NCBI GenBank assembly: GCA_028532985.1
Contig: JANCIK010000004.1
Location: 620,001-684,000 of the forward strand
DNA from: Stropharia rugosoannulata
Taxonomy: Eukaryota > Basidiomycota > Agaricomycetes > Agaricales > Strophariaceae
Reading direction: 5' to 3'
DNA: 64,000 nucleotides
Positions 20,094 through 52,495 of this stretch are shown here, piece by piece (within the stretch, counting starts at the first letter, position 1; each line of letters begins with the position of its first letter). The notes under the pieces were generated by a model. It did not search any database. It was given only the letters and a program-made list of their open reading frames with translations, and was not told the DNA's origin. The translations under genes were made by a program, and so were the position numbers.

Positions 20094-20433
20094 TGAAGGA
20101 CCTTGTTTGGGTCTGGTCAAGTGCTCAGTGATGGCCCGTTTGTATGTCCTGCTAGAAATGATCTAACCCAACACAACCAACAACCACAACAAAAACACAC
20201 AACCAATCTCAAACAAATGCTTCTTTAATGCGAAGTCGGGGGTCTATGTACAAAAGAAAGACACAGTTGTCTTTTATAATATAAGCCGGTTAAACGTTTT
20301 CTTAACACAAAGACTCAGCCCGAGGGGCGTGGTGGTGTAGTGTGATAAGTGTAGTTTTGTGTGCGTGTAACGCGAGGTGCTCGAATGAGACTTAGTCTGA
20401 CACGACGATCAGAAAGAGAACTGAAAACTGTTT

Positions 20434-20592
20434 AACCGCTCCAGGTATGTGCGCGACGACACTGCCTGCAAAATAACCGCTCCAGGTATACACGTAGTGT
20501 TGCCTGCAAAATGACCGCTCCAGGTATGTGCGCGACGACACTGCCTGCAAAATTAAACCGCTCCAGGTATACGTTAAACGTTGCCTGCAAAA
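20434..20592 (+). repeat. Tandem repeat in OUTER LTR
   Basis: Four units of about 38-43 bp, each beginning ACCGCTCCAGGTAT and ending TGCCTGCAAAA. They alternate: units 1 and 3 carry GTGCGCGACGACAC, while units 2 and 4 carry ACACGTAGTGT or ACGTTAAACGT in the same place. Each unit has a short inverted repeat in the variable part. The other LTR copy is at about 50944-51102. Such arrays often act as enhancers; that is inference. Confidence 0.8.
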
Positions 20593-21109
20593 CTGCTTCC
20601 AGACTCAAGACTTAGTCAAGTAATCCGTCAAAAGCTTTGAACTCTCTCTAAACTCGCAGTGAGGACTTTAAACCGTATATATTCACTCTAGGTAAATCTA
20701 CTCGGGGGAACCTGCTATTCTACATTACATGCTGGGGTATTTATACGTTTCTGGGAGACGGGTTTTCGTAGGCGCCCGGAGACGTTCTCTACTAAAACCT
20801 CGCACCCGATTGGTTTGTAGGTCCATACGGTTCTGCCCGTTTAATTACATTTTAGGCGTTCTAGATGAGTGGAGTAAGAATTTGAAATAACTGAAAAAGG
20901 ATAGATTCTGGAGGCTTGTCAGGAACGAGCCTATTTTTAGAACGGTTAAACCGTCTTTTGGTGCCTGGGCGTCTGTCTGCCCCCTGAGTACAGTCAGTTT
21001 TACTACGCCTTGGCTTTTTGGAATGTAAGCCGGGACAGAGTTACCCCACTGGTGAGTCATCTCGCCTCCGACTGTACCCGCTTTTCAGGGTCTATCAGGC
21101 TCCTGCCAA

Positions 21110-21840
21110 ATAGCCCGCTATATTCCCTCCGTATGGCCAGTACGAGGCTTCGCTAATTAGCCCGGTAGAACTGTCTAAGTTTATTAGCCCGGCTTATTGA
21201 CCTTTGTTAATTAACCCGGTATAACGTTCAATCAAAACAGCCCGGTATAACGACTAAGTCATTTAGTCCGGTATAATGCCTAAGTCAAATAGCCCGGTAT
21301 AATTACTCGAGTTAAATAACCCGGCATAATGATCTGCTTTCCCTAATCTCTCGTTTTCGATGGCTGGTTTTTAGAAGACTGACCCGCTATAAGTCTCTAG
21401 TCGAGTTTCGTCGTTATGGTTGGTGTCATTTAACCCGGTATAATTTAACCCGGTATAATGCCTCTGCCTTTGCACTCTGTTTAACCCGCTTATCTGACTT
21501 CCTCGAATTTGAAGACATTACTAAGTATATTTCTTGGGCAGTAACTTTACATTTAGCCCGGTATAATTATACCGGGTTGAATGCAAAGCGTACCTGTGCT
21601 CTCCTTTATGCCGGGCTTATTATTATTCTAACTTTAAGCCGGTCAGATGCGCTTATAAGCCATACTGGTCCTGCGACTAAGTCCAACCGTAAAGGCTTAT
21701 TAACCCGCTTGTTTAAAGTCTCTTGGTTTACTCTCCAGTTAAATTCTCTAACGTGGACAGTTACCGTCGTCACTTTTACTTAAGCTTTTAGTGTGGTTTC
21801 GCTTATAGTTAAAATAGCCCGCTTAATTGATTAAGTGGAG
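21110..21840 (+). repeat. Array of OUTER-specific CCCGGTATAA-type motifs in the LTR
   Basis: At least seven exact CCCGGTATAA in either orientation, plus many variants (CCCGCTATA, CCCGGCTTA, CCCGCTTAATT, TCCGGTATAA). Most are preceded by TA(A/G). One inverted pair makes the perfect palindrome CCCGGTATAATTATACCGGG at 21557-21576. The motif recurs throughout OUTER but not in flanking DNA or INNER. Confidence 0.8.
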
Positions 21841-21985
21841 GTCTACACTTGTCTTCGTTATTCTCTGTCTCTCATTGGGTCATACTGAAGTCTTTAATAC
21901 GACTTTAATAGTCTAGACTACTGAAATGATAGGATTTATAGTAAAATCGCAAAATTTCATGGCCAGGCACTTAGGTGCCCTATCA

Positions 21986-22021: not shown

Positions 22022-22642
22022 TACTGACTGATCTCTTTTTACTTTCGGACTTCGCCGGCCGTCTATTTTTAACCCGCCACGCTGTTCATCGTTCTCTCCG
22101 TTGAGCGATTGCACTTCTTCATTGTTTATCACAATGAGGAATGCGTTTATTCATTGTGCTCATTGTTTGGCTATTTTTAGTATGTACTCCCGGCTACTAT
22201 CTCCTTTTTAGGATACAGTGCTGCGCCACCGCCACGTCCCGCATATGTCTCGATTCCCCATTGTGCCCGCCTTTTTGTAAGATGACCGAGCTGCTCTTCT
22301 GCTTAAGACGGGGACACAGGATGACTGTTTTTGGAACGGTGATCTTGCTATGTCAAAATGACTCTCGTTTCCAACGGTCTTTCAAGTGCCCGGTTAAGTG
22401 CCCGGTGCCTAATTAGGCAACGATTCTTCCATTCCTGGTCGAATGACTCCCGTTGACCCGTCTTCTACTACTACCCGCTCTCTGGATCCTCGTATGTTTT
22501 CTTCTCCCTCCATTCTACTCTCTTTCTGGCAATGTCTCTCCCTTTCTTTTGCTTTTGCTCGCGCGGTCTTTTCGCCTATTATTTTGTATTTAAACAGCCC
22601 GGCTCAGTGTCGCTTTCCTTCATTCCCCCTCTACTTTTTATC

Positions 22643-24506
22643 ATGGCTGCGCCTTCTCCTTCTCCGTCGCTCTCTATCCGCACTATCTATAGCGAATTCT
22701 TTGAGGATCTGGTCGAGGCCCTGGAACGCTGCCATTTCCCCGCGGCATCTATTGATTGGGCCGAACCCTTCCGCCTCCTCCGCGATGCTTTAATTGCTCG
22801 TCCCCTCCTCAACGATCCCTCTGCGGCTCGGAAATTCGTGAAGTCCACCTTACCCCCCTTGTTTCGCAATGCTCGAAACTCTCTTCTCGCTCTCAACGGT
22901 GGTTCGTACCTGAAGATTGAGCAAGCGGGTACCATGTTGCCAGAAATCCGGCAAATTTTTCGGTGGCTTATATTGATCGTTCAGTCTTTGCCCTCCGAGA
23001 TCCTGGACGAGCTAGACCTGGACTGGCTAGTACTTCCCCGGGTACGCTTTTTCTCTCTTTAGCCTTTCTATTATCCTTGCTGATTTGCCTTCTCTATTTC
23101 CAGATAGACTACGGCTCTGTTTGCCCCGTCTCTGTCCTTAAGCGGCTCAACTTCCCTTCTCCTCTAATCGCCCCGGTTCAAGAGTTTGATGGGGACTTTC
23201 CCCACATCCTGGAGGGTTTGTTGGAGGGCTTTGGCCCGGGCTTACTTCAGCTCGACGGGTACCGCCCTGCTCTCGAATTTCACCGGACCCCGCCTCCCCT
23301 ACCTCCCCCAATAGTGGACGCAGAGCCATTGTCTCCCCCAACCCCTGTTTTTCCCGGTTCCCCTACTCTGGCCCCTCCTGTTGCAGGCCCTGATTGGAAC
23401 CTTCTCGCTGCAGAGGACTTAGACTTGGCTTCCCTTCCTCCACGCGAACTCGTGCATCCATTTACTGGTAGACCCCGGCCATCTGTTTCCCGTGCAGTCC
23501 CCGTACCCGCAAGTCAGGCTGACGGGTCCGTTTTTACTCCGCCGCCTATTCGCCCCATTCGCCGGAACACTGCCCGCGAAGGTCCCGCATATGCGCATTA
23601 TGCACAACAGCATCGTTGGGAGGCCACCCCTCTAGAGTTTAAGGATCCCCGTCCCCCTCAAATGATAAACCGGGCTCAAGCCGAGGGGCTTCGGGTCCAA
23701 CACAACATTCAAGTGAGTTTTCGTAGTTCTGCCCTTGTCTCTTTTTTTTTTTTTTTGGTATTCAGAACTTATTCTCTTCTAGCTCCCGACGCCTTGCGCC
23801 GCCTGCCTGCTTCTCGGTTTAGAGGACCGTTGCGAGGTACAGGAAGGGGAAGACAGGTGCACTCCTTGTATAGTGCGCAAATCCACCACTTTCCCTTGTA
23901 CTTTCCTTGCCTCTCCGGACGAGCGGGCTCTTTTAGCTGAGCGGTGCCACTTTTTGGGTGGCACTTCCCTAGCTGGTAAGCTGCATTTCTTCTAACTCTC
24001 TTATTATTTCTAACTTATTTCTCTCCTTTTTTATTTTTTTATTTTTTTTAGCTATTCAAGATGACTTCTCCAGCTTGCAACATCAGGCGGAGCAATATCT
24101 CGTCCAGAGTCGGTTAGCTGAGGCCAGTTTCGCCCGGGCCGAATTTTATCGTGACCGGATCTACGCCCGCTTGGGCTTACTTCTCGAGTCAGACTCGCCT
24201 GATGCCATCTTCTCCACCCATGCCTCGATGGACCGCGCGTCTTTTGACGCCCTGGTGGAAGCTGTTCGCGCCTCTGATGGGTTGGGGCGGGTGCGCTCCC
24301 GGTTCTCCTTTGATTCTGTGGTGGAGAACTTGGCAGAGTCTTACCTGCCCGAGGTGCCCCAAGTTGCACCCTATAACGACACCCAGCGCGCCGACCCCGC
24401 TACTTTGGCTGAGTCTGAGATGGAGGCCGGCGAATCTGAAGAGGTGGGCCCAGCTCCTTTAGCTGACTCCGAAATGGAGGTCGATGGATCCGGGGAGACT
24501 ATCTGA
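22643..24506 (+). CDS. OUTER AccA: accessory protein with Zn-cluster-like Cys motif
   Basis: Four exons (22643-23041, 23104-23712, 23783-23975, 24052-24506), all with GT-AG ends and consistent frame, giving about 551 residues. The N-terminal domain is helical (from MAAPSPSPSLSIRTIYSEFF). A Pro-rich linker fills about residues 185-320. A six-Cys cluster C-x2-C-x8-C-x8-C-x2-C-x9-C follows at about 340-375, close to the fungal Zn2Cys6 DNA-binding pattern but with longer spacing. A helical segment (QHQAEQYLVQSRLAEAS) and an acidic C-terminus end it. It is antisense to gag-pol. INNER has a gene at the same place with the same order of parts (26559-28571). The function is unknown; a DNA-binding regulator is my inference. 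Confidence 0.65.
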
Positions 24507-24801
24507 TTGTACTTTTTGATACTATTCTTGTCTGCCTCTTTGTGTAATATTCTCTCTTGTGTACTTCTTTAGTAGGAGTACAAATGTTATATTCTCTCTC
24601 TTTTGGTAACTTCTTAAGTGTGAATTTGAGTGAATGGTTTATTCTTTCAAGTTTTTTCCTTTAAGAATTTTGTTATAAGTTTTCTGCCCGATTATTTGTC
24701 CACATTTAGGACTCCGTCTTTTGATCCCTCTTTTAAACTGAGTCTTTTTGACCCTTGTTCACTCATGGACAACTTGGAACTCTCTAATACCTTGCAGGCG
24801 A

Positions 24802-26009
24802 TGTGAGGTCTACTGCGTAGCTAGACTCGAAATCGCGAAACACAACACACACACACACCCAGCGGAGCGAGATCCTATCCCTTAGATCGAGTGAACGCCC
24901 TCAACTAAATGGCTAGTATAATCTATGCTCTGCCCTGGTTCCCGTTCTGGGCGTGCGATGCGCGCACCTCGTGTCCTCTAGTCTTTGTAACAGCAAGTAG
25001 TGCCTGCAAGTTCGTTTGTAAGGAGGGGTTTAATTCTAGTAATTCTCGGATAGAGCCCGGTTGCTAGTGGCGTGCACTAGGCAAAATGATGAATGAAATA
25101 AGTTGTTTTAGCGAACGGCTTCGCTGCGCGCACTTCCGGGTCCGGTGACCTCGTGCGATGCGCGGACTCTCCAAAGTCCAACAATCCCAAGACTCTCCAA
25201 AGTCTTTCACCCGGCGGTGCAGTCTCACAGTCTAAACACTACAGTGCGAGTTTCCGTACACGTTTGTACTGACTCCTCACTGAGCTCTCCAAATGACCCG
25301 GTGGCCAGAAGCTATCCAAAACTCCTATGATTCACAAACACTTCACAGTTAAAACCCTAACAAAAGCTAAACACAGCCCGCTGACGGCCTGGGACGGAAC
25401 CCAGCACACAGATCTAGTGGGTAGACAATTGCTTGAATTACTATAGCCAAGGATACAGGTTTATATGCGATGCGCGCATGTGTACTAATCGTAAGGTAAA
25501 GTAAATACTAGCAACGTGTAAAAGGTCCGCGCATCGCATCCGGGCTTCCCTCTAGTGTTCCAGCCCCTTGGCATTTCGCTGCGCGCGTGTCGTTCGTTCC
25601 CTCGGGCTTTTGCGCGTCTTTTGATGCGCGCCGCCACGGTCACATGATGTGTGGACTTAGGCAAATTCTGCCTTTGCGATGCGCGCACATGAGATGCGCG
25701 CACAGCCCTTCACACCGCCCTTGGTACTCGCTCAGCTGTACTCACACCGCACTTCGCTGGTGCTTAACCGTTCTACGCCTCTCCGATCGCTCGCACGGAT
25801 GACCAGACTATGCACTTTAGGCTGTGCAGCTCGCTGACCGATCTCTCTCGCAATGCGGTGCGCGCAGGCGCTTATAGTCATAAAGCGCGCTGATAGCTAT
25901 AGACTATGAGTCAGGCTCCACTCTAGTCCCTCTGTGTTTCCCGCGCGCAGCTGTCCCGCCACTGGGACTTCAGACTGTTTACACCCATAGCCAAAAAGCA
26001 GCCCTCTCA
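24802..26009 (-). repeat. INNER LTR (3' LTR in element sense)
   Basis: 1208 bp, TG...CA ends. Compared with 39450-40660 I see a clustered difference near 25517-25526 (3-bp indel plus substitutions) and a C/T change near 25627. It contains six exact TGCGCGCA octamers and near matches. Short frames here are not genes. Confidence 0.95.
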
Positions 26010-26046
26010 TCTCCCCCCCACTAAAATCTTGACTGTCCTCAGTCAA
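26010..26046 (-). promoter_or_regulatory. INNER polypurine tract plus hairpin (LTR-adjacent copy)
   Basis: TCTCCCCCCCACTAAAATC directly follows the LTR (a GTGGGGGGGAGA polypurine tract in element sense). The perfect hairpin TTGACTG-TCCT-CAGTCAA follows at 26029-26046. Confidence 0.75.
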
Positions 26047-26450
26047 CTTCAGATGCGCGCATCTCATCTTTGATAGCAGTTCACCATTATCCCGTTTTCC
26101 TGCCTACGGCTCAGCTACTGCCTTACGCGGCTACTACGGCGCCTCCGCCGGAGTCACTATCGCTATCCATCCTCTTTCCTTCCTTTTCAGGTATCCCCAG
26201 CCCGACTTTTCTCGACTAGTTTATTTTAGGCAACCGCCACCGCACTCATACGCGCACCGTACCTCCCGCTGACTTCCTTCTTGGGTCATTTGCCTAGTCA
26301 GGTCTTTTCTTCTCCTTTTCTGATCCTTGCTGGACCTTCTTTTGGCGTTACGCTGTTCTAGCATATTGCCGGTAAGTTTACTCGACATGCGCTCACCGCC
26401 TTCCGCTTCTCTCATACTCCAGAATTTTCTTTTGCTATTCCTCCCTGCCA

Positions 26451-26458
26451 TATATAAA
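26451..26458 (+). promoter_or_regulatory. TATA box of INNER AccA
   Basis: TATATAAA about 100 bp upstream of the AccA ATG at 26559, showing that the antisense cassette has its own promoter. Confidence 0.6.
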
Positions 26459-26558
26459 GCAGCCATTCACGCTACCTTTCCTTCTTCTTTCTCGTCCTCT
26501 TTTTACCTATCCTTACTGCTTCCCTTTCTATTCTCCCATCCTAGACCACAAGTGCTCC

Positions 26559-28571
26559 ATGGCTTTCCGAGGCGTCAGCAAGCTACTCAAGGTTCAACAG
26601 GAAGAGCGCGCCCTTGACCGCGCGGATCATTTCCATCGACTCCGCCCCGTCTTAGCCCAATACGACATTTTCGAGGACTTGGGCGGCCGTGACCGGCTGA
26701 GCCCCGAGGAAGTTAACCAATTCGTGTCCCTTCGCGAACGTTTCGGCCTCGCAGTCGAAAACCATGTGCGCGCATTTCCTATCGACGCCACTCACCACGC
26801 AGGAACGCGCGAATTGGTTCTCCTGTTGTCCCTCCTGGCCACCGGTGACGACGACCCAATTTTTGGATGGAACTCGGAGGACATAACCCAGCGCGCCTTA
26901 TGGTTCACCGAGCCCGACCCCGAGCTAAAACCCGTAAGTCCCCTTTTTCATTTTCTTTATCATGTGCGCTAACAGATCCTCTACAGCTGACTTCTTACAA
27001 GGTCGCTTTCGCTAGCGCCTTCCCTCTGTCTTGGTCGCCGGGGGCTCAGCCAGAGCCCCGTTTGCAGTACATCCCCCTGGCGCCATCCGACATAGAAATG
27101 GCCGCGCCAGGAACGGAGGCTTCTGGCACTGTCGAGACAACAGCCGCGCCCCCGCCCCCGCCCGAACAAATGCGCGCATCATCCACTCCACCGCCCCCTT
27201 CCCCTTCCCCGGTGCCTTCTGCGCGCACCTCACCAGTCCCTACTGCGCCTGCCCCCATTGCGCCTGCCAAGCGCAAGCGCACTGTTCATGTACCCCTTTC
27301 GTCCCTGCCAGTCCCCGACCTTCCATTGGCTAAGCGTACGCGCTCCGCCCCCGAGACTTCTGGTAACGTTTCCTTAATCACTGGCCTTTTCTTTCTTCTT
27401 GATGCTTTTCTAGTGATCCAAGAGGCCGTAGCCGGTCCTTCTCGTACGCGCACTTCTGCCCCCACTTCCAAGAAACGCGCGTCGCGCACTAAGGTGGTGC
27501 CTTTGGAGGTGGTCCCCAGTGGCCTCCCCGAGCTTCCTCGTCTGGTAGGCGTGGACAACTCAAAAGTTGCCTACCAGTCTACATATCCTATCTATAATCT
27601 CCTCCCCGGCGTATATTCCGCGTCGCTTGCCTTGGCGGGCAAGCCCTTGCCTGACGCCATTCAGATGCGCCAACTGCCTTCCGAGGAGCAGCTGAACGCT
27701 GCCGTGATCGTACGTCTCGTGTTCCCTTTTAAAATTTGTATTTATCTAGCTAACTCTTTCCCAACCCTAGCCCGGGTTTTCTTGCTCTCTTTGCGGGCGT
27801 CCTCAGGACGAGTCTTCCGATACCGCTTCTCACAAGACATTTTGTCTCCTGCGCGGCCCTGGCAGGAAATGCGCGAGTTGTCGCTTGAGCAATCAGGGCC
27901 CTTGTCTCCATACGATGACCAGTACCGAACTCGACAGTGCCCTTGAGGGGACTTCTGGCTGGCATCGGACTTCTCCCCGTGGTATGCGCGCATCCTTTAT
28001 CTTACTTTTCCTTCCACTTTGTTAACTTCTCTTCTTTTCAGAACTTCAAGCTTCCTTCGCTCGTCTCGAGGCCTATGGTCAGCAGGCGCGCGCCGCGGAA
28101 GAGTCCCGCCGAGGCCTTCAGCGCCTGTACTTCGCCGAGCTGATCCAGCTCGTCCAGCTTGCGCAAGCCATGGCTGCGACCCTCCCTACGAACGTCGTGA
28201 TAGGCGCGCGTTTCACTGATTGCGAGACCTTTGACGCCTTGCGTCATATGGATCTCCCTGCTCTCTGCGCGTCATACGATGCGCTTTGCCAGCCTCTGGA
28301 CCCCGACCATCCGACTGACTTCGTTCCCTCTTCCTCCTTTTACGATCCCGCGCACCCTCGTCAAGATCCTTCATCTTTCATCCCCGCCCCCCAACCTTCT
28401 AAAGCCTCCAAGGTCCGCGCCTCGGTTTCTAAAAATAAAGGCAAGGGTAAAGGCAAAGGCAAGGCGCCTGTTCGATCCTACAAGTCTTCTCCCGTCGTTG
28501 TCGACGACTCAAGCCCCGAGGCCTCTGCTGAAGAAGAGGCTGTTAACGAGGGCGATAATATGGAGACCTGA
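26559..28571 (+). CDS. INNER AccA: accessory protein with Cys cluster and basic C-terminal region
   Basis: Five exons (26559-26933, 26987-27362, 27414-27709, 27807-27981, 28042-28571), all in frame, giving 583 residues. It starts MAFRGVSKLLKVQQEERALD with a helical N-terminal domain. A Pro/Ala-rich linker holds two basic KRKR/KRTR stretches. A Cys group C-x8-C-x2-C-x7-C (KTFCLLRGPGRKCASCR...) lies at about residue 377, matching the last four Cys of OUTER AccA but lacking the first CxxC. A helical segment and a Lys-Gly-rich basic stretch (KNKGKGKGKGKA) follow, then an acidic end. The last intron donor is GTATGCGCGCA, so the element motif sits on a splice site. The function is unknown; a nuclear DNA- or chromatin-binding protein is inferred. 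Confidence 0.65.
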
Positions 28572-29016
28572 GTCTTGCTGCGGGACGCGCATTTTGGCGC
28601 CTGTTTTCTTTTTATCTTTCTTTCTTGTGCCCTCCCTTACTATTCTATCTAGCATATGTAGAGTAGCTTTGTCTAGTATTATATGCTTTGGAATTTACAA
28701 TTCTCTTCTTATCTTCCTCCTGTGTGATCCTAAGCATTTTTATTTCTTCTTAAGGTAATCCCTAACAGCTAGCTTTCTTTTGAGCGAGTACAAGTGCGAT
28801 GCGCGCACATTAGGAATGCACGCTTGCTTGTATGTGCCCATCAACTTCTGTTCCGGTTTTCCTACAGTACTTGGGCGAGTATCAGTGCGATGCGCGCATA
28901 TGAAGTGATGTGCATATGCGTATCCGCTAGCCCACTGCTACTTCTACCCTGCACTTCTGATCCTTCTGCCGTATCTCCTTAAGCTGCTAGATTTATCTCT
29001 GCTTGGCTAGGCCATC

Positions 29017-29053
29017 TCTCCCCCCCACTATAAATTCAACTGTCCCCAGTTGA
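29017..29053 (-). promoter_or_regulatory. INNER internal polypurine tract plus hairpin (second copy)
   Basis: CTCCCCCCCACTATAAAT is followed by the hairpin TCAACTG-TCCC-CAGTTGA (29036-29053), 20 bp before the AccB ATG. It copies the LTR-adjacent block with compensating stem changes. TATAAAT at 29030-29036 may also serve as the AccB TATA box. Confidence 0.65.
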
Positions 29054-29073
29054 GAGTTTCTTTACTCTCTGTT

Positions 29074-29554: not shown

Positions 29555-29571
29555 GCCCGTGCGCGGCTCTG

Positions 29572-39447: not shown

Positions 39448-39449
39448 GA

Positions 39450-42168: not shown

Positions 42169-42230
42169 GGCCGCGCTTTCCAACGTCGAAGAACAGACCA
42201 ACATTACTTGTCCGCGTCCTCCGTCGCAAC

Positions 42231-43642
42231 ATGGCTACTTTTGACATCTCTTCTACCCTTGAACGTGTTCAAGCGGGTCTCGCCCAATACAAGTCTACCC
42301 GGCCGTTATTGGGTACTGTCGATGCTATTACGCCCAAGCTCTTAGCCGACCAGTTAGTAGCCCAGGTTATGCTGATGGTAAGCAAAATCCCAGCGACCCT
42401 AAATAACCCGTCTCATCACTTCTTATTGTAGCTCCCGTGGGGCGAGGATATGTCGTCCCTACTTGCACATACTGCTGCGTGCGACGCGTTGTTATTCTGC
42501 CGGGCAGAGTTACTACACATTCACGCGGCTGGTGTGGCGTCTGGTTACGAACATCCTTCGGAGTTCCACAAGCTTAGCTCGCTTACTATCCATATCCACA
42601 ATCATCGCAAAGGTCAATCCCTCAAAGCTCAGCAGCAAAAAGTACGTGCAGAAGCTGAAGCCGCTCTGCGCGACCAAGCGAAGCAGTCCCAGCGCGAGGT
42701 GAGCCAGTCGTATCTCAACTTTCATTATACCGGGCTAATTTTACCCGGTACAGACCCGCCATCGCAAGGTCAAATCCAAGGCGACCGTAGAGGACAGTGA
42801 CGAAGAAATGGAGCCGGTTATCATCCTGGATGGTAATCCCCGTTCTCTCCAAGGATCTATGCATGCCCCAGCCACCCCGGTATGTTGTTGGAGTTTTTAG
42901 CCCGGTAAAACACTTGTCTCACGGGTCTGGTTACTTAGGATGCGATGGTCGTTGACGACGCCACTGCTACTCCTACTCAAGCGTCTGTACGTGCTGAGGC
43001 TAAAGCTGCTAAGAACGCTCCTCCGACGCCTGGAACTCCTTCCTCTGTAAGTAGTGGCACCCTTCTATCTTAGGTGACTTACTAACTGCGCTTCTCTACC
43101 CGGTTCAGCGTGAACGCAAGGCTGAGGTGCGCTATTTCCCTCTGGCACAGATTAGCGGCCTCAACACTGATACCTCGGCTTACCGTAAGGTCACCCGTGT
43201 TACCAGCAAGTCTGACCGTCCGTCCTCCAAGCGCCCTCGTTCTTCTATGACGCCGCGCACTGTAGCAGGCGCTCCCGCTGGTGAAGGTACTGCGTATTTC
43301 CACTGTTCCCAAAGGACACCTCGTTGACCCATTTTTGCAAAGCAGGCGGCCTCGATGGACCCGTCGAGCTAGACGAATGCCTTATGCGGGTACGCGTCCT
43401 TCAATCCCAGGAGAAGCTCGCTATCTCATCCGTCCGTGGCGCACAAAAGGAAAAGGAGCTCTTACTTGCCCAACTCGAAGAACACCACTATCACTTGCGC
43501 TACAACCTTCGTATGCGCGACTTGGTAGTCGAAAGCCTCCAGAAGTGGCAGGCCAAGCATGAACCCGGTATGTCATTCTCTCATTATATCAGGCTTTACA
43601 ATTAACCCGTTATGACTAGATGCGCCTCTTCTCTTCGCTTGA
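42231..43642 (+). CDS. OUTER AccD: accessory protein, helical, multi-exon
   Basis: It starts MATFDISSTLERVQAGLAQY. Exon 1 (42231-42377) and exon 2 (42432-42698) are in frame. Exon 3 begins at 42754 after an acceptor formed by ACCCGGTACAG. A later acceptor is ACCCGGTTCAG near 43109. The middle is basic and disordered (DRPSSKRPRSS). The last main exon is a coiled-coil-like helix (RGAQKEKELLLAQLEEHHYH). It probably ends by splicing a GTATGT...CTAG intron to a TGA at 43640-43642; without that the stop is at 43603-43605. It has the same order of parts as INNER AccD and the same MAT start. It converges on pol with 173 bp between the ends. Function unknown. Confidence 0.6.
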
Positions 43643-43815: not shown

Positions 43816-46800
43816 TCAGTCGTCTTCGCTATTCTCAGAGTCGCTCAGATTCCCAGACAAGTCTTCATCAGCCGATGGTTCTGAAGCGTCCAAGATCCTT
43901 TGTAACCCGTCTTTTGAAATGTTCAACCACTTTAATAAATTGTCCGGTAAGTCTATTTTTGACCGGGCAAAATAAGGTAAAACCCTAAATTGCGCGACTT
44001 TGTGACTCCACAGGGCACCGTTTAATTCTGCCACGATGTAGGATCCGCCTGTAGTCCGTCGGATGACAACCATCGGTCCAAGATATCGCGGCTTCATTTT
44101 CTTGTCTAGGCTAGACTCGATGCCTGTGTTGCGGACTAAAACCAAATTGCCCGGTTTAAAATCAAAGTCTTTTATAACAGCCTTGTGATCGGCTTCATAC
44201 TTCAACAACCGGTCTACTTTGGCCTTAGTTATTTTAGCCCGCATTTCGTCAATCAGAGTGGCTTGTTTAGCTAGCGCTTGAGCCCGAAAGCCAATTAATT
44301 CTGCATCTGTCAGAATCCTACCCGGCAGTTTAACTAACCAGGTAGCTTCAACTACATCCAGAGGTATGGTAGGGTGCGCCGCTGTTACCATAAAGAAGGG
44401 TGAACAACCGAGCCGCTTCCTTATTGAAATACGGTCGGCCCACAACACATGGTATAAGAACCAGAACCACTTCGAGATCTGACCGCCTGTTGCTTTGTAC
44501 AACATTTGACGGATATCCCAATGAGGCCTTTCCACTGTCCCATTTGCCCGTGAGTTATATGGAGAAATTCTGATACCCCGGATGCCATATTTATCAGCTA
44601 GCCATTTGACCGCCTTAATAAACGGAGGTCCGTTGTCTGTCACTATCTCCACCATACAACCCCATCTTGTTATAATCTCTTCGAAAAGCCATTTGCCAAT
44701 AGTTTCACTGTTTTCATTTCTAACTGCCCGGGCTTCTGGCCACGATGTAAGGTTACATCGCCCGTGTACTATGTATTTACACCCGTTTGAAGGCGGTGAC
44801 ATATTCATGGTATCACAATGCACGACTTGGAAAACTGACGGTGTATGAGTAACGACAGGGGGTATCTGGACCAGTATTTTCTGTCGCTCTTGACAGAAAT
44901 GGCAAGTCTTGATATACCACACCACATCTCGCTCTAATTCTGGCCACCAGAATCTACCCGCTAAAAGGTTCTTAGTGGAATAGACTCCCCGGTGTCCTAA
45001 ACTGTCATGCGCTGCCTTCAACATATACATGCGGTCTTTCTTGGCGACCACTAGTCTGTGTTGAGAGTTTTCGCTCCGTCTGTACAGCCGTCCCTCTGCG
45101 TCTAAGAAGAAATGAGCTGCCCATCTTTTAAAGTTTTTAACTTTCTTAGATGTGTCGCAATAAGCGGGCAGGGTAGTCAAGTCTTTTAACCAGGTTGTTA
45201 TATCCGGTAACTTAGCATCATGATCTATGCCTATTTTAGTTCGTAGGTCCTCGGGATATGCATCCACAACCGGATCCTCGGTCCGTTCTGGCAGTAAGTC
45301 TCTACTTATTTGGTTTGTAAAGGCTGTCATCGCGGCTACCACTTGTTTATTTTGCCGGGGTGTTTCCTTTTTCAAGAACTCCCTTAGCTCTTTACAAGTT
45401 TCTTGTGCTAGGACTTTGGCAGTTTTAATTTCTGTCTCGAAGTCTTTTACACAAGTAGCTCGCGTATGTAGAAATCCCTTCCTAGAGTCTATTTGATCTG
45501 CAAACTTCTCTATTTCAAAGGGAATAGGCCCGTTTGGATCATCTAAGACACATTTAGGAGGTAATTCTTCTGCCTCTTCCTCGAGATCTGGGTTAGAATA
45601 TTCTTCGTCCCCTGGGTAATATGGTCTACGAGATAGCCCGTCTGGTCCAAAAGTTGCTCCTACTTTGTGTACCAGTGTGAATTGGAACAATTTAATATTG
45701 TCAATCCACCGGTTTATAGTAGCATTTGGCATCAGATCTGGATTCTCTAACATCCCCTTTATGTAAGATGCGTCGGTTTCCACTACTAATTTTCGTACCC
45801 CCAGTAGCCAGTGTCGACAAGCGTACAAGGCTCTCATGAGGCCAAACAATTCTCTCTTAGGTTGAGAGAAGCGGGCTTCTCGTTCGTTCATAGGTATTGA
45901 TCCGAATCGTACGTAGTATTTCTTTTTAGGGTCTTCTATATCGCGTTGATAAATATAATAGCCTATAGCCATATATGAAGTATCAACCGCCAACACTACT
46001 TCCCCTTGCCCCTCGTAGTCTATGGTTTTTAGGCATTCGACCACGTCTAGACCTTCCTTTATAAGTCGCATGCTTTCTTCTTGTTCAGCACCCCACTCAA
46101 ACGGGTTATTGCTCTTGAGTAATTTCGCAATGTGTTGTGCCCGTTTCGCGTAGTTAGGTATAAATATTCGCAATAGTCCCAGCGTTCCTAAGAATGCTCG
46201 TACATCGCTCACATTTTTACAAGTGCCCCAGTTTTTGATGACAGCTAGCTTGTCTGGGGATGGTTTTCTTCCATCATAGGAACACAAGTGTCCCACGACG
46301 GTGATTTCACTCTCACATACGACGGATTTATGCCCGCTAAACGTTCCCCCGCAATACCTCATTCTCTGAAGTACCCGGTTCACGTTATTCATATGCTCCC
46401 AGACAAACCGCCTAATCCCTGGATTTTCTTTGATAGTTTCATACGACCCGTCAGGTTGTTGGTAGCGTGAGGCGGGGCCTCTTACTGGTACGTCGTCTAT
46501 ATATGGCATAGTAAATTCTGGGACTTCCTCTTGCAAAATGAAATTAACATCATCATGAAAGATTGGTACTGAATTTGTCCATCCCATAGGCAGTGTTACC
46601 AGCCTCATAGCTCCAAAAGGCGTTTGGAATGTGGTCAGGTCTCTAGATTCTTCCGCGAGAAGCCTTTCGTCGTATCCTACATATAAATCAAACATCCCTC
46701 CACAAGCCCGACCTGAGAAATGTATTGCCAATTCCTCGGTAGCCGGGGGAACCCCAGAGTGTGCGATGGTTACCGCGTTTAGCGGTTCCAGACTATGCAC

Positions 46801-47625
46801 CACTCTTAGCTTCCCGTTTTTCTTTAGCACGGTAAACCAACGCGTTCTATACGGTGAATTTGATGGTTCTATTATTTTGCTTTCCAATTTCTCCTTGAGT
46901 ATCCGACACACCTCGCCTTGTAACCCTGGCGGAATAGGTATGTTCTTGAGCACCCAAGGCTTATGTTCGATAACCGGTATTTCTACCGGTGGAAAGTACT
47001 CTTCTTTGAAGCGTCCTTTCTCACTATCTTCCCAAGCAAAAGCTCCATTCTGGTTCATCATAAGGTTATGCATTAGATCTCTTTCTGCCGGCCATAAGAA
47101 ATCACTCTTGTGTACCTCGTCAAACTGTTCTTTTCTCTCTTGGGTATACCGACCTGTTGGTACGAACGGTACTGGATTTGTAGGTAAAGCGGGCATATCA
47201 GCTAGAGGGTCTCCCTTGATATCCCGCTTAATCCTATATCTCTCTGGTAGCTCTTGAAAAACTGGTCTCACTTTTTGTGCGACCGGCTTATATTTCTTTC
47301 CTACGTACTGTCCTCGAGTTTTACTAGTATCCCTTCTTTTACCCGCTAGTTTACCTATGCCCGTTTCTCGTGTAATATCCGTTTTCACCGTTTGTTGAAC
47401 GTATGATTTTCGGCTACTATACTTTTGACCCATGAACAAGGCAAGCTTCTCTCTCTCGTTATCTTCGATCGGGCTTTCTTTTCCCGCTACCTCTAAGTAG
47501 GCATTCATTATCCCTCTTTCCGAAAATTTACCCGTCTCAGCTACAGTGTAACCGAGTACTTGTAAACTCCCCGTCCTGGAATCATATTCCAGCATAACCG
47601 CAGTATCTCCTTGATCATCGATCAA
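43816..47625 (-). CDS. pol: OUTER pol: reverse transcriptase-RNase H-integrase, intact
   Basis: A single open frame of 1269 codons. RT: LDLYVGYDERLL-type palm (here FDLYVGYDERLL), LPMGWTNSVPIFHDD, and the YIDD catalytic motif in MPYIDDVPVRGP. RNase H: AVDTSYMAIGYY and VETDASYIKGMLENP. Integrase: HHCC domain (HDSLGHRGVYSTK, CHFCQERQ). DDE core: Asp in VHCDTMNMSP, Asp in EIVTDNGPPF, Glu in NGTVERPHWD. A GP(Y/F)-like module (RYLGPMVVIR) follows, with no chromodomain. It makes cDNA from the genomic RNA and inserts it. It starts with an ATGA overlap with the protease gene (47622-47625). Sequence type is the agaricomycete Ty3 lineage with VGYDERLL/TNSVPIFH. Confidence 0.9.
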   Translation of the reverse strand: MIDDQGDTAVMLEYDSRTGSLQVLGYTVAETGKFSERGIMNAYLEVAGKESPIEDNEREKLALFMGQKYSSRKSYVQQTVKTDITRETGIGKLAGKRRDTSKTRGQYVGKKYKPVAQKVRPVFQELPERYRIKRDIKGDPLADMPALPTNPVPFVPTGRYTQERKEQFDEVHKSDFLWPAERDLMHNLMMNQNGAFAWEDSEKGRFKEEYFPPVEIPVIEHKPWVLKNIPIPPGLQGEVCRILKEKLESKIIEPSNSPYRTRWFTVLKKNGKLRVVHSLEPLNAVTIAHSGVPPATEELAIHFSGRACGGMFDLYVGYDERLLAEESRDLTTFQTPFGAMRLVTLPMGWTNSVPIFHDDVNFILQEEVPEFTMPYIDDVPVRGPASRYQQPDGSYETIKENPGIRRFVWEHMNNVNRVLQRMRYCGGTFSGHKSVVCESEITVVGHLCSYDGRKPSPDKLAVIKNWGTCKNVSDVRAFLGTLGLLRIFIPNYAKRAQHIAKLLKSNNPFEWGAEQEESMRLIKEGLDVVECLKTIDYEGQGEVVLAVDTSYMAIGYYIYQRDIEDPKKKYYVRFGSIPMNEREARFSQPKRELFGLMRALYACRHWLLGVRKLVVETDASYIKGMLENPDLMPNATINRWIDNIKLFQFTLVHKVGATFGPDGLSRRPYYPGDEEYSNPDLEEEAEELPPKCVLDDPNGPIPFEIEKFADQIDSRKGFLHTRATCVKDFETEIKTAKVLAQETCKELREFLKKETPRQNKQVVAAMTAFTNQISRDLLPERTEDPVVDAYPEDLRTKIGIDHDAKLPDITTWLKDLTTLPAYCDTSKKVKNFKRWAAHFFLDAEGRLYRRSENSQHRLVVAKKDRMYMLKAAHDSLGHRGVYSTKNLLAGRFWWPELERDVVWYIKTCHFCQERQKILVQIPPVVTHTPSVFQVVHCDTMNMSPPSNGCKYIVHGRCNLTSWPEARAVRNENSETIGKWLFEEIITRWGCMVEIVTDNGPPFIKAVKWLADKYGIRGIRISPYNSRANGTVERPHWDIRQMLYKATGGQISKWFWFLYHVLWADRISIRKRLGCSPFFMVTAAHPTIPLDVVEATWLVKLPGRILTDAELIGFRAQALAKQATLIDEMRAKITKAKVDRLLKYEADHKAVIKDFDFKPGNLVLVRNTGIESSLDKKMKPRYLGPMVVIRRTTGGSYIVAELNGALWSHKVAQFRVLPYFARSKIDLPDNLLKWLNISKDGLQRILDASEPSADEDLSGNLSDSENSEDD

Positions 47626-48917
47626 CTCCTCGATGCTGGAAAAACTTGTTCTGCTGCTTGCGCTGCAGTTGGCTTTCTTAGTTCTGCCGGTGATTTTCCT
47701 CTATCAAATGTTGGTACTACTAGTTTATTCCCATTTCTTGGATCCGTCAGAGTGATGGTTTGATCACCAGACGTTTCATTTTTAATGTTACAGGCGGATA
47801 CTACCTCAAAAGGGCGACCCAGAAGAACTTTGTAAGGCGGGTCGTTTATGATGTGGACTTGTAGCAAGTATTTCAACCCGCCAAAATCAAACATCACATT
47901 TCTAGCCAAACCCAGAGTCCTTTCTACATGTCCTTGGGCGCTCTGCATATTGATGGTTATTTTTGGATTCCAGGATATACCCAATGAGACCGCGACGTCT
48001 TTGGCCATGGATACTATTTCTGATCCTCCATCTAGTAATGCTTCCTCCTGATCCACATTATTAATCTTTGGGTACACTGACCTAACTGGTCTGGCTTCTG
48101 TAGCTACCCATCTGATGTCAACGGGCTCATCTGTCTCTGCTAGACTATCCAAGTATTGGACTACCGGATCAGTTACTACTATTGTACCCGCTTGACCTAT
48201 TTCTGAGTCGTGAGGCAAGATACAATAATTGGTACACTGCGGCAAGTCTTCGATATATATTTCTACCCGCTTTTGGGTGTCTGATATTATATCCAAGCTC
48301 GGTTCGGTATCTAGCTCTATTGCTGGCTCAGAAGTACTAGGTAGTACTTCCTGACTAGCAAATGATAGACTCTCCTCCGGATCAACCGGTTTATTTATTT
48401 CCCCGTCACTTTCTATATACTCATCATACCAATCTTTCCTGTTCTCGTCCTCTGTGATGTTTACATTGGACGCGACCGTAGGGTGGACTGGTACTCTGAC
48501 TTTAGAAATATGCCGGGTTAATTCTTTTAATAAAGCGGGCGAATTGCCCAGCAATTGCCCCACTGTAGTGCCTACCGGCGTATTTAATATTAAGTCTACT
48601 ACATCTTTTGTTACTGCGCTAGCTTCCACTGGTGCTCTGGTCTGATAAGCGGGTATATGTTTCTCTCTCGGGACATCCCGCCTATGAACTTCATTCAAAG
48701 GCCTTACGTCCACGAAAGGTACCTCTGCCACTTGGCTAGGCGGAGGGTTCACATTTTCCTCTACACTTCTCGTTTGTGCAACCGGCTTCTTTCTAGCGTT
48801 CATAACGACTTCAACTATTTTATTTTTATTTTTCATCTTTGGCTGTTTTTCTAATTTGTCCTCCGGGGCTGATAAACCTACTAAGCTAGCCAACTTATTA
48901 GGGTCAGCTGATCCCAT
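47622..48917 (-). CDS. OUTER retropepsin-like protease with DGG active site
   Basis: 431 codons. The protease domain is in the C-terminal half. The active-site loop reads LLDGGSEIVSM, with Gly where retropepsins and INNER have Ser or Thr (DSG/DTG). The partner motif YKVLLGRPFEVV is present. The N-terminal half is charged and low complexity. The start lies 11 nt past the gag stop, in another frame. It overlaps pol by ATGA. Whether DGG is active is uncertain. Confidence 0.8.
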   Translation of the reverse strand: MGSADPNKLASLVGLSAPEDKLEKQPKMKNKNKIVEVVMNARKKPVAQTRSVEENVNPPPSQVAEVPFVDVRPLNEVHRRDVPREKHIPAYQTRAPVEASAVTKDVVDLILNTPVGTTVGQLLGNSPALLKELTRHISKVRVPVHPTVASNVNITEDENRKDWYDEYIESDGEINKPVDPEESLSFASQEVLPSTSEPAIELDTEPSLDIISDTQKRVEIYIEDLPQCTNYCILPHDSEIGQAGTIVVTDPVVQYLDSLAETDEPVDIRWVATEARPVRSVYPKINNVDQEEALLDGGSEIVSMAKDVAVSLGISWNPKITINMQSAQGHVERTLGLARNVMFDFGGLKYLLQVHIINDPPYKVLLGRPFEVVSACNIKNETSGDQTITLTDPRNGNKLVVPTFDRGKSPAELRKPTAAQAAEQVFPASRS

Positions 48918-48928
48918 CCTTGAACGCT

Positions 48929-50188
48929 TTAGAAATTTTCTTGGTCTGCGTCTTCTTGCATTTTACCGTATAGGTATTGCCTGACGTCGTTCAGATCCAT
49001 TTTGTCCAGAAGAATCTCCAAGTCAGCCTGGGTTGAATCACCCGGGTTGAATTGTTCTCCTTCGGCTCTGTGAGCGACTGTGTGGTTGAACTGTATTATA
49101 CCGGGCTGGTTCCTTGGTTTCACATTAAGATTAACCGTGACCTTGCCGTCAACAAACAGCGCCTCAACTCGCTCTTTTACTGAGTCCCCTGCTTTTCCCC
49201 ACGGAACAGGTCTTCCGTCAGCCAATTTAACTTTGCCATAGACATCTACCAATATCCATCCTTTAGCTATATGATCCCCTTTTACTGGGCATTCATTTTT
49301 CATATGGCCAGACTCATTGCAATAGAAACAAATGCCTGACGGGCTGCTGCTAGCACCATACCTAGGTCCGTTACTACCTGAGGATTGGGCTAGCACCCTA
49401 GACTGCGACATTAACCGGGTTAATTCCTCAATCTTATTATTAATAAGTTTCATATTGCTCTCAGCCTGTTTGGCTTGGATATTAAAGGTATCTTTCATCC
49501 TGCATATCTCAGCTTCTACCTTAGTAGACATTTCTGGATTAGCCCGGCTGTTTTGGCTTGTACTCGCGCGCGACGTTAACGATTTGTAGGTCGTTCGGGA
49601 ACCTTGACCAATCGATATAGCCGTCTCGATCACATCGTCTAATTTATACCGGTCTTCGGGTCGTACTTTTCCTTCTACAGCTTTACTTGTTACCTCTAAA
49701 CGGCTCTGTACGTTACTTCTAAACTCTGGCTCTAGACACTCCAAGAACATTTCCACGGCTTCTCTGTTAGACAGTAAGGCGGGTTCTTTTTGTAGTTTAG
49801 AGACCTCGGCTACAAAGCTTCGTATCAAAGATTTCAGATCCACGAGGTCGGTCTGATCGATTCCTCTATGATCCTTGCATAGTCGCTGTAATTTCTTAAG
49901 CGAACCCCGTTCTTGGTCGGCTGCCTGGGGATATGAGTCTATCAGTTCACTTTTGAACTTCTCCCAATTTTCCCCAGTATAGGATTTCAGATATTGCCAC
50001 TCCATTTCTGAAGTCGCATCTGCGTATTTCCCTAGATTGGTAATCTTTTCCTCGTCCTCTGTGATTGAGTACTTTTTGTATAAGTCCTCCATTCGACTGA
50101 TGAATCTCAGGAGTTCTTCTGGCTTTTCCGAATCAAAGGACGGGGCGTCCCTTGATTGGGGGTTGGGCATTCTGCTTTTATCCGCCAT
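48929..50188 (-). CDS. gag: OUTER Gag-nucleocapsid protein
   Basis: 419 codons. It starts MADKSRMPNPQSRDAPSFDS. The capsid-like helical region includes SLKKLQRLCKDHRGID and RSFVAEVSKLQKEPALL. The zinc knuckle CFYCNESGHMKNEC lies at about residue 285. It forms the virus-like particle and packages RNA. The frame stays open and Lys-rich for about 100 codons upstream of the ATG (KSSKNKSSSKTSSPVKRATK) but I find no ATG there, so a longer product would need splicing or a non-ATG start. Confidence 0.85.
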   Translation of the reverse strand: MADKSRMPNPQSRDAPSFDSEKPEELLRFISRMEDLYKKYSITEDEEKITNLGKYADATSEMEWQYLKSYTGENWEKFKSELIDSYPQAADQERGSLKKLQRLCKDHRGIDQTDLVDLKSLIRSFVAEVSKLQKEPALLSNREAVEMFLECLEPEFRSNVQSRLEVTSKAVEGKVRPEDRYKLDDVIETAISIGQGSRTTYKSLTSRASTSQNSRANPEMSTKVEAEICRMKDTFNIQAKQAESNMKLINNKIEELTRLMSQSRVLAQSSGSNGPRYGASSSPSGICFYCNESGHMKNECPVKGDHIAKGWILVDVYGKVKLADGRPVPWGKAGDSVKERVEALFVDGKVTVNLNVKPRNQPGIIQFNHTVAHRAEGEQFNPGDSTQADLEILLDKMDLNDVRQYLYGKMQEDADQENF

Positions 50189-50583
50189 ATTCTCTAGAGG
50201 AGGTATACTCTCTGTACTAGTAGTGGTTTGGAAGTTTAAGCGGGGTACTGGTTTTAAAACTCGTTTACGGACGGTGGGTACTAGACCACTGGATAACCCG
50301 GCAGTAACTGAATTTAAAGTCGCGCGTTTCTTAGGAGCACCAGGCGGTTGTAATGCGCTGATGGCTAATGAGGAAGTAGCGGCTTGTTTTGCTCGGTCTA
50401 ACTTAGTCGCTCGTTTGACTGGCGACGACGTTTTACTAGAGCTTTTGTTTTTAGAGCTTTTTGTAACCGGCGAAATCTTTACTAAGATCCAGTAATGATT
50501 TCAACCGGGTAGAACTGAATTCTTTATATAAAGAACCCGTTTATTTAGGTTTATATTATAATAACTGTAATCAGTCTAAAACC
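50189..50583 (-). other. OUTER 5' leader
   Basis: Holds the open Lys-rich stretch upstream of gag and, nearer the LTR, TTTATATAAAG at about 50521-50531, a TATA-like sequence downstream of the LTR in element sense. No separate gene. Confidence 0.35.
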
Positions 50584-50601
50584 CCCTCGCGGTGGGCTCC
50601 A
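50584..50601 (-). other. OUTER primer binding site
   Basis: The same 18 bases as INNER (CCCTCGCGGTGGGCTCCA on the plus strand), two bases from the LTR. Probably tRNA-Cys, judged by the U discriminator. Confidence 0.8.
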
Positions 50602-50603
50602 GA

Positions 50604-52495
50604 TGAAGGACCTTGTTTGGGTCTGGTCAAGTGCTCAGTGATGGCCCGTTTGTATGTCCTGCTAGAAATGATCTAACCCAACACAACCAACAACCACAAC
50701 AAAAACACACAACCAATCTCAAACAAATGCTTCTTTAATGCGAAGTCGGGGGTCTATGTACAAAAGAAAGACACAGTTGTCTTTTATAATATAAGCCGGT
50801 TAAACGTTTTCTTAACACAAAGACTCAGCCCGAGGGGCGTGGTGGTGTAGTGTGATAAGTGTAGTTTTGTGTGCGTGTAACGCGAGGTGCTCGAATGAGA
50901 CTTAGTCTGACACGACGATCAGAAAGAGAACTGAAAACTGTTTAACCGCTCCAGGTATGTGCGCGACGACACTGCCTGCAAAATAACCGCTCCAGGTATA
51001 CACGTAGTGTTGCCTGCAAAATGACCGCTCCAGGTATGTGCGCGACGACACTGCCTGCAAAATTAAACCGCTCCAGGTATACGTTAAACGTTGCCTGCAA
51101 AACTGCTTCCAGACTCAAGACTTAGTCAAGTAATCCGTCAAAAGCTTTGAACTCTCTCTAAACTCGCAGTGAGGACTTTAAACCGTATATATTCACTCTA
51201 GGTAAATCTACTCGGGGGAACCTGCTATTCTACATTACATGCTGGGGTATTTATACGTTTCTGGGAGACGGGTTTTCGTAGGCGCCCGGAGACGTTCTCT
51301 ACTAAAACCTCGCACCCGATTGGTTTGTAGGTCCATACGGTTCTGCCCGTTTAATTACATTTTAGGCGTTCTAGATGAGTGGAGTAAGAATTTGAAATAA
51401 CTGAAAAAGGATAGATTCTGGAGGCTTGTCAGGAACGAGCCTATTTTTAGAACGGTTAAACCGTCTTTTGGTGCCTGGGCGTCTGTCTGCCCCCTGAGTA
51501 CAGTCAGTTTTACTACGCCTTGGCTTTTTGGAATGTAAGCCGGGACAGAGTTACCCCACTGGTGAGTCATCTCGCCTCCGACTGTACCCGCTTTTCAGGG
51601 TCTATCAGGCTCCTGCCAAATAGCCCGCTATATTCCCTCCGTATGGCCAGTACGAGGCTTCGCTAATTAGCCCGGTAGAACTGTCTAAGTTTATTAGCCC
51701 GGCTTATTGACCTTTGTTAATTAACCCGGTATAACGTTCAATCAAAACAGCCCGGTATAACGACTAAGTCATTTAGTCCGGTATAATGCCTAAGTCAAAT
51801 AGCCCGGTATAATTACTCGAGTTAAATAACCCGGCATAATGATCTGCTTTCCCTAATCTCTCGTTTTCGATGGCTGGTTTTTAGAAGACTGACCCGCTAT
51901 AAGTCTCTAGTCGAGTTTCGTCGTTATGGTTGGTGTCATTTAACCCGGTATAATTTAACCCGGTATAATGCCTCTGCCTTTGCACTCTGTTTAACCCGCT
52001 TATCTGACTTCCTCGAATTTGAAGACATTACTAAGTATATTTCTTGGGCAGTAACTTTACATTTAGCCCGGTATAATTATACCGGGTTGAATGCAAAGCG
52101 TACCTGTGCTCTCCTTTATGCCGGGCTTATTATTATTCTAACTTTAAGCCGGTCAGATGCGCTTATAAGCCATACTGGTCCTGCGACTAAGTCCAACCGT
52201 AAAGGCTTATTAACCCGCTTGTTTAAAGTCTCTTGGTTTACTCTCCAGTTAAATTCTCTAACGTGGACAGTTACCGTCGTCACTTTTACTTAAGCTTTTA
52301 GTGTGGTTTCGCTTATAGTTAAAATAGCCCGCTTAATTGATTAAGTGGAGGTCTACACTTGTCTTCGTTATTCTCTGTCTCTCATTGGGTCATACTGAAG
52401 TCTTTAATACGACTTTAATAGTCTAGACTACTGAAATGATAGGATTTATAGTAAAATCGCAAAATTTCATGGCCAGGCACTTAGGTGCCCTATCA
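50604..52495 (-). repeat. OUTER LTR (5' LTR in element sense)
   Basis: 1892 bp, apparently identical to 20094-21985, which indicates very recent insertion or later LTR homogenisation. Contains the tandem repeat (50944-51102) and the motif array (about 51620-52350). Confidence 0.95.

Follow-up and report, generated by a model that had tools for sequence, protein, structure and literature searches.

Two nested retrotransposons with antisense genes

The 64,000 nucleotides of Stropharia rugosoannulata DNA analysed here (contig 4, positions 620001-684000; "the window" means this whole stretch) were studied together with a genome scan of 48 Mb in 20 contigs. The window contains two giant Ty3-type long terminal repeat (LTR) retrotransposons, INNER nested within OUTER, each with an antisense gene set (Acc) between pol and the 3' LTR and each enriched in a short motif of its own. 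AccA, the first gene of the set, is considered as the candidate reader of these motifs.

The insertion point of INNER lies between the AccA and AccB models of OUTER. Both OUTER LTRs are identical over 1892 bp and the two INNER LTRs share 99.5% identity. The LTR termini are TG...CA and are accompanied by short target duplications, read by eye as ACGT (OUTER) and GCGA (INNER); a script seeking only duplications of at least 5 bp gave GCGAT for INNER and none for OUTER. Pfam matches follow the Ty3/Gypsy order in both elements (asp-protease, RT_RNaseH, Integrase_H2C2), with those of the OUTER protease below curated cut-offs and RVT_1 itself not reported. The OUTER frame from reverse transcriptase (RT) to integrase is 55-57% identical to INNER-type copies.

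The first-pass annotation had proposed four opposite-strand genes in each element, one with a Zn-cluster-like cysteine pattern. This was borne out as to a 4-exon AccA, whose exon 3 contains a Cys cluster, followed by about three more intron-containing models, on the plus strand of each element between pol and the 3' LTR. The correspondence between the INNER and OUTER genes is one of position only, and INNER AccD is poorly resolved. All Acc genes are computed models without RNA evidence. The features, with counts of the words TGCGCGCA and CCCGGTATAA, are as follows:

20094-21985, minus: OUTER LTR (3' in pol orientation); 7 CCCGGTATAA, some within 26-bp and 15-bp tandem repeats
22532-24506, plus: OUTER AccA; 4 exons (22532-23041, 23104-23712, 23783-23975, 24052-24506), alternative ATG at 22643, Cys cluster in exon 3
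24800-26009, minus: INNER LTR (3'); 6 TGCGCGCA
26559-28571, plus: INNER AccA; 4 exons, 612 amino acids (aa), hypervariable among copies
27771-27981, plus: INNER AccA exon 3; Zn-cluster-like C-x2-C-x16-C-x8-C-x2-C-x7-C
28042-28571, plus: INNER AccA exon 4; predicted helix at the start of the exon, coiled-coil candidate
29074-29554, plus: INNER AccB; 2 exons, model
29572-30165, plus: INNER AccC; 2 exons, model
30668-31983, plus: INNER AccD region; several exons, start set by eye from frames, last exon region (31714-31983) conserved among copies
32111-37348, minus: INNER protease, RT-RNase H and integrase frames; 6 TGCGCGCA within
37321-38780, minus: INNER gag frames with zinc knuckle; no TGCGCGCA
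39448-40660, minus: INNER LTR (5'); 6 TGCGCGCA
40701-41188, plus: OUTER AccB; model
41239-41741, plus: OUTER AccC; model
42159-43605, plus: OUTER AccD; model of 6 exons, alternative model of 7 exons to 43717
43816-47700, minus: OUTER RT-RNase H-integrase frame
47622-50500, minus: OUTER protease and gag frames
50604-52495, minus: OUTER LTR (5')

The canonical fungal Zn2Cys6 cluster has the spacing C-x2-C-x6-C-x5to12-C-x2-C-x6to8-C. The cysteines of AccA are spaced x2, x8, x8, x2, x9 in OUTER and x2, x16, x8, x2, x7 in INNER; on this spacing, and with no Pfam match, a canonical Zn2Cys6 binuclear cluster factor was rejected for both. Seven single-exon frames were also without Pfam match. Compared with solved structures, the OUTER Cys exon gave a single match, to a RanBP2 chain (E 0.16), which was taken as chance. 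In the genome it gave nine matches at eight loci, with an OUTER-type pol match at a distance of about 20 kb or less in seven of these eight, and none at INNER-type AccA places. The AlphaFold model of INNER AccA exon 4 places a helix at residues 2-46 (block means of pLDDT, the AlphaFold confidence measure, 88, 92, 85, 79 and 63), with good confidence for about the first 40 residues; overall pLDDT was 59 and confidence was low beyond the helix. A DNA reader could well be built in this way, with a Cys cluster ahead of a long predicted helix.

Motifs private to each element

About 35 octamers had been described across INNER, and the window contains exactly 35 copies of the palindromic (self-complementary) TGCGCGCA, every one inside this element (24959-40517, unstranded) and not in tandem. 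The Acc region has 17 of them, pol and each of the LTRs have 6, and gag has none. The numbers are far above those of 200 dinucleotide shuffles in the LTR (6 vs 0.04), the Acc region (17 vs 0.27) and pol (6 vs 0.11), and the 31.6 kb of flanking DNA contain none. The half-site GCGCA was found 159 times in INNER (64 and 95 on the two strands) vs 51 expected from 100 shuffles; for OUTER the corresponding counts were 26 vs 19, and for flanking DNA 42 vs 46. Genome-wide, TGCGCGCA occurs 2784 times vs 633 for the reversed control.

The OUTER motif is best described as TTARCCCG / CCCGSTWTA. It is more degenerate than that of INNER and densest in the LTR, the only place where its arrangement is, in part, tandem. 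TTARCCCG was seen 8 times vs 0.11 after shuffling in the LTR, 6 vs 0.20 in AccB-D and 3 vs 0.19 in gag and protease. A motif family distinct from that of INNER is thus present in OUTER as described in the first-pass annotation, but not equally spread, since 14 of the 16 window copies of CCCGGTATAA lie in the two OUTER LTRs and two of the five copies of CCCGTTTA fall outside OUTER. CCCGGTATAA occurs 277 times in the genome vs 55 for its reversed control, mostly in LTR-like clusters among the 100 places listed. The places listed were the first 100 of each pattern, which extend to contig 6 for CCCGGTATAA, to 1.40 Mb of contig 1 for TGCGCGCA and to 4.71 Mb of contig 1 for TCAGCGGAG, a word considered below.

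In shuffle tests neither motif was enriched in the other element or in flanking DNA, in agreement with the annotated rarity of each outside its own element. CpG depletion or base composition as the source of the motifs was ruled out by observed/expected CpG ratios of 1.02, 0.95 and 0.86 together with the dinucleotide shuffles. It must be noted that all motif counts come from explicit patterns. A mixture-model search, too permissive with its hundreds of sites, only suggested consensus forms, and a 6-mer correlation test was weak (its second-order correction absorbs GCG-rich words) and was not used as evidence.

The motifs extend into coding sequence, and in RT their excess goes beyond codon choice, as shown by 500 codon-preserving shuffles. 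None of the 500 was as high as the observed counts of TGCGCGCA (3 vs 0.24 expected) and GCGC (36 vs 24) in INNER RT, GCGC in INNER protease (18 vs 9.1) or RCCCG in OUTER pol (27 vs 12). Shuffles as high were found in 2 of 500 for OUTER protease (8 vs 3.0), 5 for GCGC in INNER gag (15 vs 10.1), 13 for TGCGCGCA in INNER protease (2 vs 0.37) and 33 for GCGC in INNER integrase (13 vs 9.3). The excess was weak for TGCGCGCA in INNER integrase (1 vs 0.14; 66 of 500) and for RCCCG in OUTER gag (9 vs 5.8; 48 of 500). The swapped controls were flat (GCGC in OUTER pol, 5 vs 5.8; RCCCG in INNER RT, 7 vs 10.8). This excess of sites, coding sequence included, suggests that a bound site benefits the element.

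Two loci of another Gypsy family (L040, L042) each carry GTCGGGT or its complement seven times within about 1.1-1.3 kb and in one orientation, possibly another private motif.

A motif switch between close relatives and the divergence of AccA

In a search with the INNER RT-RNase H frame, 47 of 483 candidates were scored, 35 of them at 93-100% identity (sub1, the group to which INNER belongs) and 12 at 88-90% (sub2). The AccA and LTR side of sub2 was read from one copy (L069). TGCGCGCA is absent from the element part of this copy, CAGCGGAG occurs 14 times vs 0.6 expected, and the LTR contains 9 CAGCGGAG in 1.4 kb. Half-site preference is opposite in the two lineages: GCGGA was seen 45 times vs 13.4 expected and GCGCA 6 vs 13.8 in the sub2 copy, while INNER has GCGGA 44 vs 39 with its excess in GCGCA.

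In the whole genome, TCAGCGGAG has 1085 occurrences and GATGCGCGCA 815, compared with 284 and 49 for the respective reversed controls. A sub2 copy at C1:2293.6-2309.4k has 20 TCAGCGGAG, located where its two LTRs, Acc region, pol and gag would lie. Of the stretches delimited on contig 1, the seven assigned to sub1 contain 55 sub1-type and 2 sub2-type sites and the four assigned to sub2 0 and 63; these spans were drawn by hand, and the sites within copies are inherited and so are not independent events in a Fisher test. Outside the drawn spans, up to 4.71 Mb of the contig, there are 35 TCAGCGGAG and 33 GATGCGCGCA. The clusters omitted from the spans include C1:2439-2441k (5 TCAGCGGAG) and C1:1582k (3 TCAGCGGAG), and for GATGCGCGCA those near 885k, 1419-1434k, 2358-2359k and 2703k.

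Three 94-base pieces of sub2 pol, picked for containing the sub2 motif, were compared with INNER. In one, the protein sequence GSAE is kept while the serine codon changes from AGC (INNER) to TCC (sub2), which creates the sub2 motif. In the second, a TCAGCGGAG site adjoins the position of the INNER variant TACGCGCA and amino-acid changes are present, and the third has CTCCGCTGA where the INNER sequence is unrelated.

AccA is the most variable gene among those compared. In the 23 of 35 sub1 copies with all four Acc matches, identity to INNER was 96-100% for RT (median 98), 96-100% for AccD (median 99) and 87-100% for AccB (median 95), as against 61-100% for the AccA Cys exon (median 72) and 70-100% for AccA exon 4 (median 77). 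In 11 of the 12 sub2 copies the medians were 89% for RT, 80% for AccD, 71% for AccB, 40% for the Cys exon and 56% for exon 4. These medians omit rows lacking at least one Acc match (12 of 35 in sub1, 1 of 12 in sub2), and the identity table leaves out partial or weak rows, with 91 of 100, 94 of 96, 82 of 95 and 65 of 97 rows used. The AccA of the sub2 copy L069 is homologous to that of INNER and has diverged far beyond pol (exon identities 39, 43, 37 and 56%).

Between INNER and a contig-1 sub1 copy, the synonymous divergence (dS) of pol is 0.13 and that of AccA exon 2 is 1.2, with a nonsynonymous to synonymous ratio (dN/dS) of 0.22; synonymous sites of exon 1 are saturated. The spacing of TGCGCGCA downstream of AccA is almost alike in these two copies. 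Since the dS of AccA is far above that of pol and this spacing is nearly unchanged, AccA acts like an old cassette that has passed from one young backbone to another, under constraint and without measurable positive selection. The covariation of Acc genes and motif that the first-pass annotation had suggested is found between the three lineages compared, INNER/sub1, sub2 and OUTER, where AccA and motif class go together; within sub1 it is loose.

On its reverse strand (1-416), the sub2 copy L069 adjoins an INNER-type scrap 97.8% identical to window positions 29207-29622 (AccB/AccC), and elements of this kind nest in one another. GATGCGCGCA also recurs every 9.15 kb or so at C1:4673712-4701178 (4 places), perhaps a ribosomal DNA array, and at 201-bp steps or double that at C1:4751217-4752624 (6 places).

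Possible readers and their role

Whatever reads the motifs must share the nucleus with the element and vary from lineage to lineage. The strongest candidate is AccA, because it is the most variable gene compared, changes with the motif between lineages and has the Cys cluster and helix. It most likely binds the motifs of its own lineage by analogy with VANC in the VANDAL DNA transposons of Arabidopsis. AccA would then be a DNA-binding protein in which the helix following the Cys cluster allows dimerisation, recognising a short lineage-private motif that recurs through most of the element and also within its coding regions. Bound in large numbers, the protein could coat the element DNA and keep it unsilenced, probably against CpG methylation, and one expressed copy could keep the whole family active in trans. 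Taken as a whole, with coating and anti-silencing as the role of AccA, we favour this reading and consider it close to an even call.

Anti-silencing in trans appears to be the simplest benefit because the host marks these elements with apparent CpG methylation. In 11 older sub1 copies, loss of CpG to TpG or CpA reached 13.4% (320/2387) vs 0.9% at non-CpG positions (203/23185), which looks like the decay expected of methylated DNA.

VANC21 and VANC6 were shown to counter silencing in trans (PMC5735166). The S. rugosoannulata elements resemble VANDALs (PMC5735166, PMC10398659) in a variable element-encoded protein, in a short motif dense in the own family and rare elsewhere, and in a motif that differs among related families along with the protein (here in three lineages, loosely within sub1). 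In addition, the transposase there is more conserved than the reader, as is the backbone here than the putative reader, and the OUTER LTR motifs are partly tandem. They differ in being Ty3-type LTR retrotransposons in a fungus, with motifs also in pol coding sequence and, in INNER, non-tandem. The VANC trait of a mainly non-coding motif in tandem arrays is not reproduced, given the pol sites and the restriction of tandem arrangement to the OUTER LTR, and VANC domains (DUF1985, DUF287) gave no Pfam match at E<=1 in six spliced Acc proteins.

The nearest described case is the plant retrotransposon Retand, whose antisense open reading frames (ORFs; TRP28), placed between pol and the 3' LTR, encode a likely DNA-binding domain (PMC11963269). 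INNER and OUTER share this placement and differ from Retand, as described in that source, in their private dispersed motif and hypervariable putative reader; the Acc proteins scanned had no Pfam match, in a scan that used no TRP28 model. Fungal DNA transposons carry TET/JBP dioxygenases thought to counter cytosine methylation, which no retrotransposon was found to carry according to the source consulted (PMC12730594). That route is enzymatic, whereas the Acc proteins scanned gave no Pfam domain. The claim of novelty for Ty3 elements is narrowed by Retand as to antisense, probably DNA-binding ORFs. As to a private dispersed motif with a matching reader in an LTR retrotransposon, searches of open-licence papers aimed at it listed none that was recognisable from titles and abstract openings.

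A number of findings weigh against a motif-reading, anti-silencing AccA. The AlphaFold model of the INNER AccA Cys exon (pLDDT 50) has no interpretable fold. No Pfam match at E<=1 was found for the six spliced Acc proteins (a set without INNER AccD and OUTER AccB), and spliced INNER AccA had no relative at E<=0.001 among 7998 candidates scored in a large protein set. The AccA, AccB and AccC proteins of INNER and OUTER are without detectable similarity, save that one proline-rich part of AccA matched weakly. Where measurable, dN/dS in AccA is low (0.22-0.33), which rules out positive selection in the sense of a ratio above 1. Motif coverage has gaps, with no exact TGCGCGCA in INNER gag (0.04 expected from the 200 dinucleotide shuffles) and one TTARCCCG each in OUTER AccA (vs 0.14) and pol (vs 0.17). 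The sub1 and sub2 motif sets overlap in part, as CAGCGGAG occurs 4 times in INNER, against a shuffle sum of about 0.9, and CGCTGAGC is common to both (8 in INNER, 9 in sub2).

Furthermore, among sub1 copies the identity of AccA drops to about 60-70%, yet the motif does not change wholesale. The contig-1 sub1 copy, with a Cys exon 64% identical, retains GCGCA in its LTR (18 vs 5.8), and in the part of its AccA region that was read GCGCA occurs 12 times vs 5.0; seven of these sites have the form TACGCGCA or TGAGCGCA, and TGCGCGCA is absent there. All 30 sub1 pol loci read, INNER included, retain 2-7 TGCGCGCA each irrespective of AccA, whose identity was available for 24 of the 30. Finally, motif CpGs were not spared from decay in the 11 older copies (24/143 lost, 16.8%, vs 13.4% overall), so their protection was rejected; other GCGC CpGs were likewise not spared (123/867, 14.2%).

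A wider proposal, which we hold tentatively and somewhat short of an even call, is that these retrotransposons tag themselves. Each lineage would write its own address through its sequence and carry a matching, swappable antisense reader, and new lineages would arise by a joint switch of reader and address (GCGCA to GCGGA). Old AccA alleles may be shuffled between backbones, for instance via recombination during reverse transcription. Such a sequence-specific system for anti-silencing or family identity would, as far as we know, be without precedent both among LTR retrotransposons and among fungal hosts.

Among other explanations, an unlikely one is that AccA is a self-limiting repressor, which would bind the dispersed motifs and keep its own family from being transcribed; the outcome would be control of copy number and immunity groups, as with the L5-type repressor and stoperators of mycobacteriophages. 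The anatomy is alike, as cluster A phages combine one variable DNA-binding protein (here the putative AccA) with many cognate sites and a spectrum of related but distinct motifs and specificities per lineage (PMC6550527, PMC9283540). Old AccA alleles retained on one backbone would fit immunity groups. The strand bias of sub2 CAGCGGA (4 plus, 18 minus; p 0.004) resembles the mostly one-way stoperators, and fits VANC arrays equally well. However, stoperators belong to double-stranded DNA phages, act in repression and are asymmetric (PMC6550527, PMC9283540), whereas the INNER octamer is palindromic. Self-repression at about 150 half-sites would bring no obvious gain unless copy number is costly, and the family is abundant, with at least 47 RT matches.

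A similarly low probability is given to AccA as an ordinary transcription activator or boundary factor, with the LTR sites as enhancer, the others as spill-over and no anti-silencing. The order of Cys cluster and helix is reminiscent of fungal transcription factors, and motif density peaks in LTRs (6 per 1.2 kb in INNER, and the nine CAGCGGAG of the sub2 LTR). An enhancer, though, needs neither RT sites beyond codon shuffles nor sites at the pol and gag positions of sub2.

Motifs acting in RNA, as private packaging or dimerisation signals of the genomic RNA read by Gag or an Acc protein, are improbable. The sites do occur along the whole presumed genomic RNA, a strand bias is seen for the sub2 and OUTER motifs and TGCGCGCA is self-complementary; but both orientations occur, even in the pol span of one sub2 copy (2 plus, 1 minus), INNER half-sites are found on both strands, and known packaging signals are few and localised. 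That there is no reader at all, the motifs coming from mutation or recombination bias in replication, is very improbable: each family is copied by its own RT and motif density is uneven along the element, but two families in one nucleus with RT 88-90% identical have different motifs, GCGCA is under expectation in sub2, polymerase bias would hardly produce a preference for an 8-bp palindrome or a switch of serine codon, and neither motif is in excess in flanking DNA.

If AccA does read the private motif, an LTR retrotransposon would have evolved independently what VANC does in plant DNA transposons, and selection for protein-binding sites would reshape codon choice in pol. The dozens of copies, many AccA alleles and one-base half-site switch would then represent a replayable co-evolution of reader and site, which the motif switch between close relatives makes directly testable.

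Other features were observed around the nested elements. They are flanked by two frames in opposite orientation, of 744 aa (window 15180-17414, plus) and 743 aa (53199-55430, minus), which look related (6-mer profile r 0.53); the left one, the only one scanned, has DDE_3 transposase matches. A tandem duplication with a spacing of about 1.9 kb and 78-88% identity lies at 11539-14368, and two divergent 442-aa frames at 59513-60841 (minus) and 62405-63733 (plus) are perhaps an inverted gene pair. Elsewhere in the genome, Gypsy integrase matches of equal score were located about 1.3 kb from the contig start at two loci, L067 (C7:1-2952) and L068 (C8:1-2951), which are perhaps subtelomeric.

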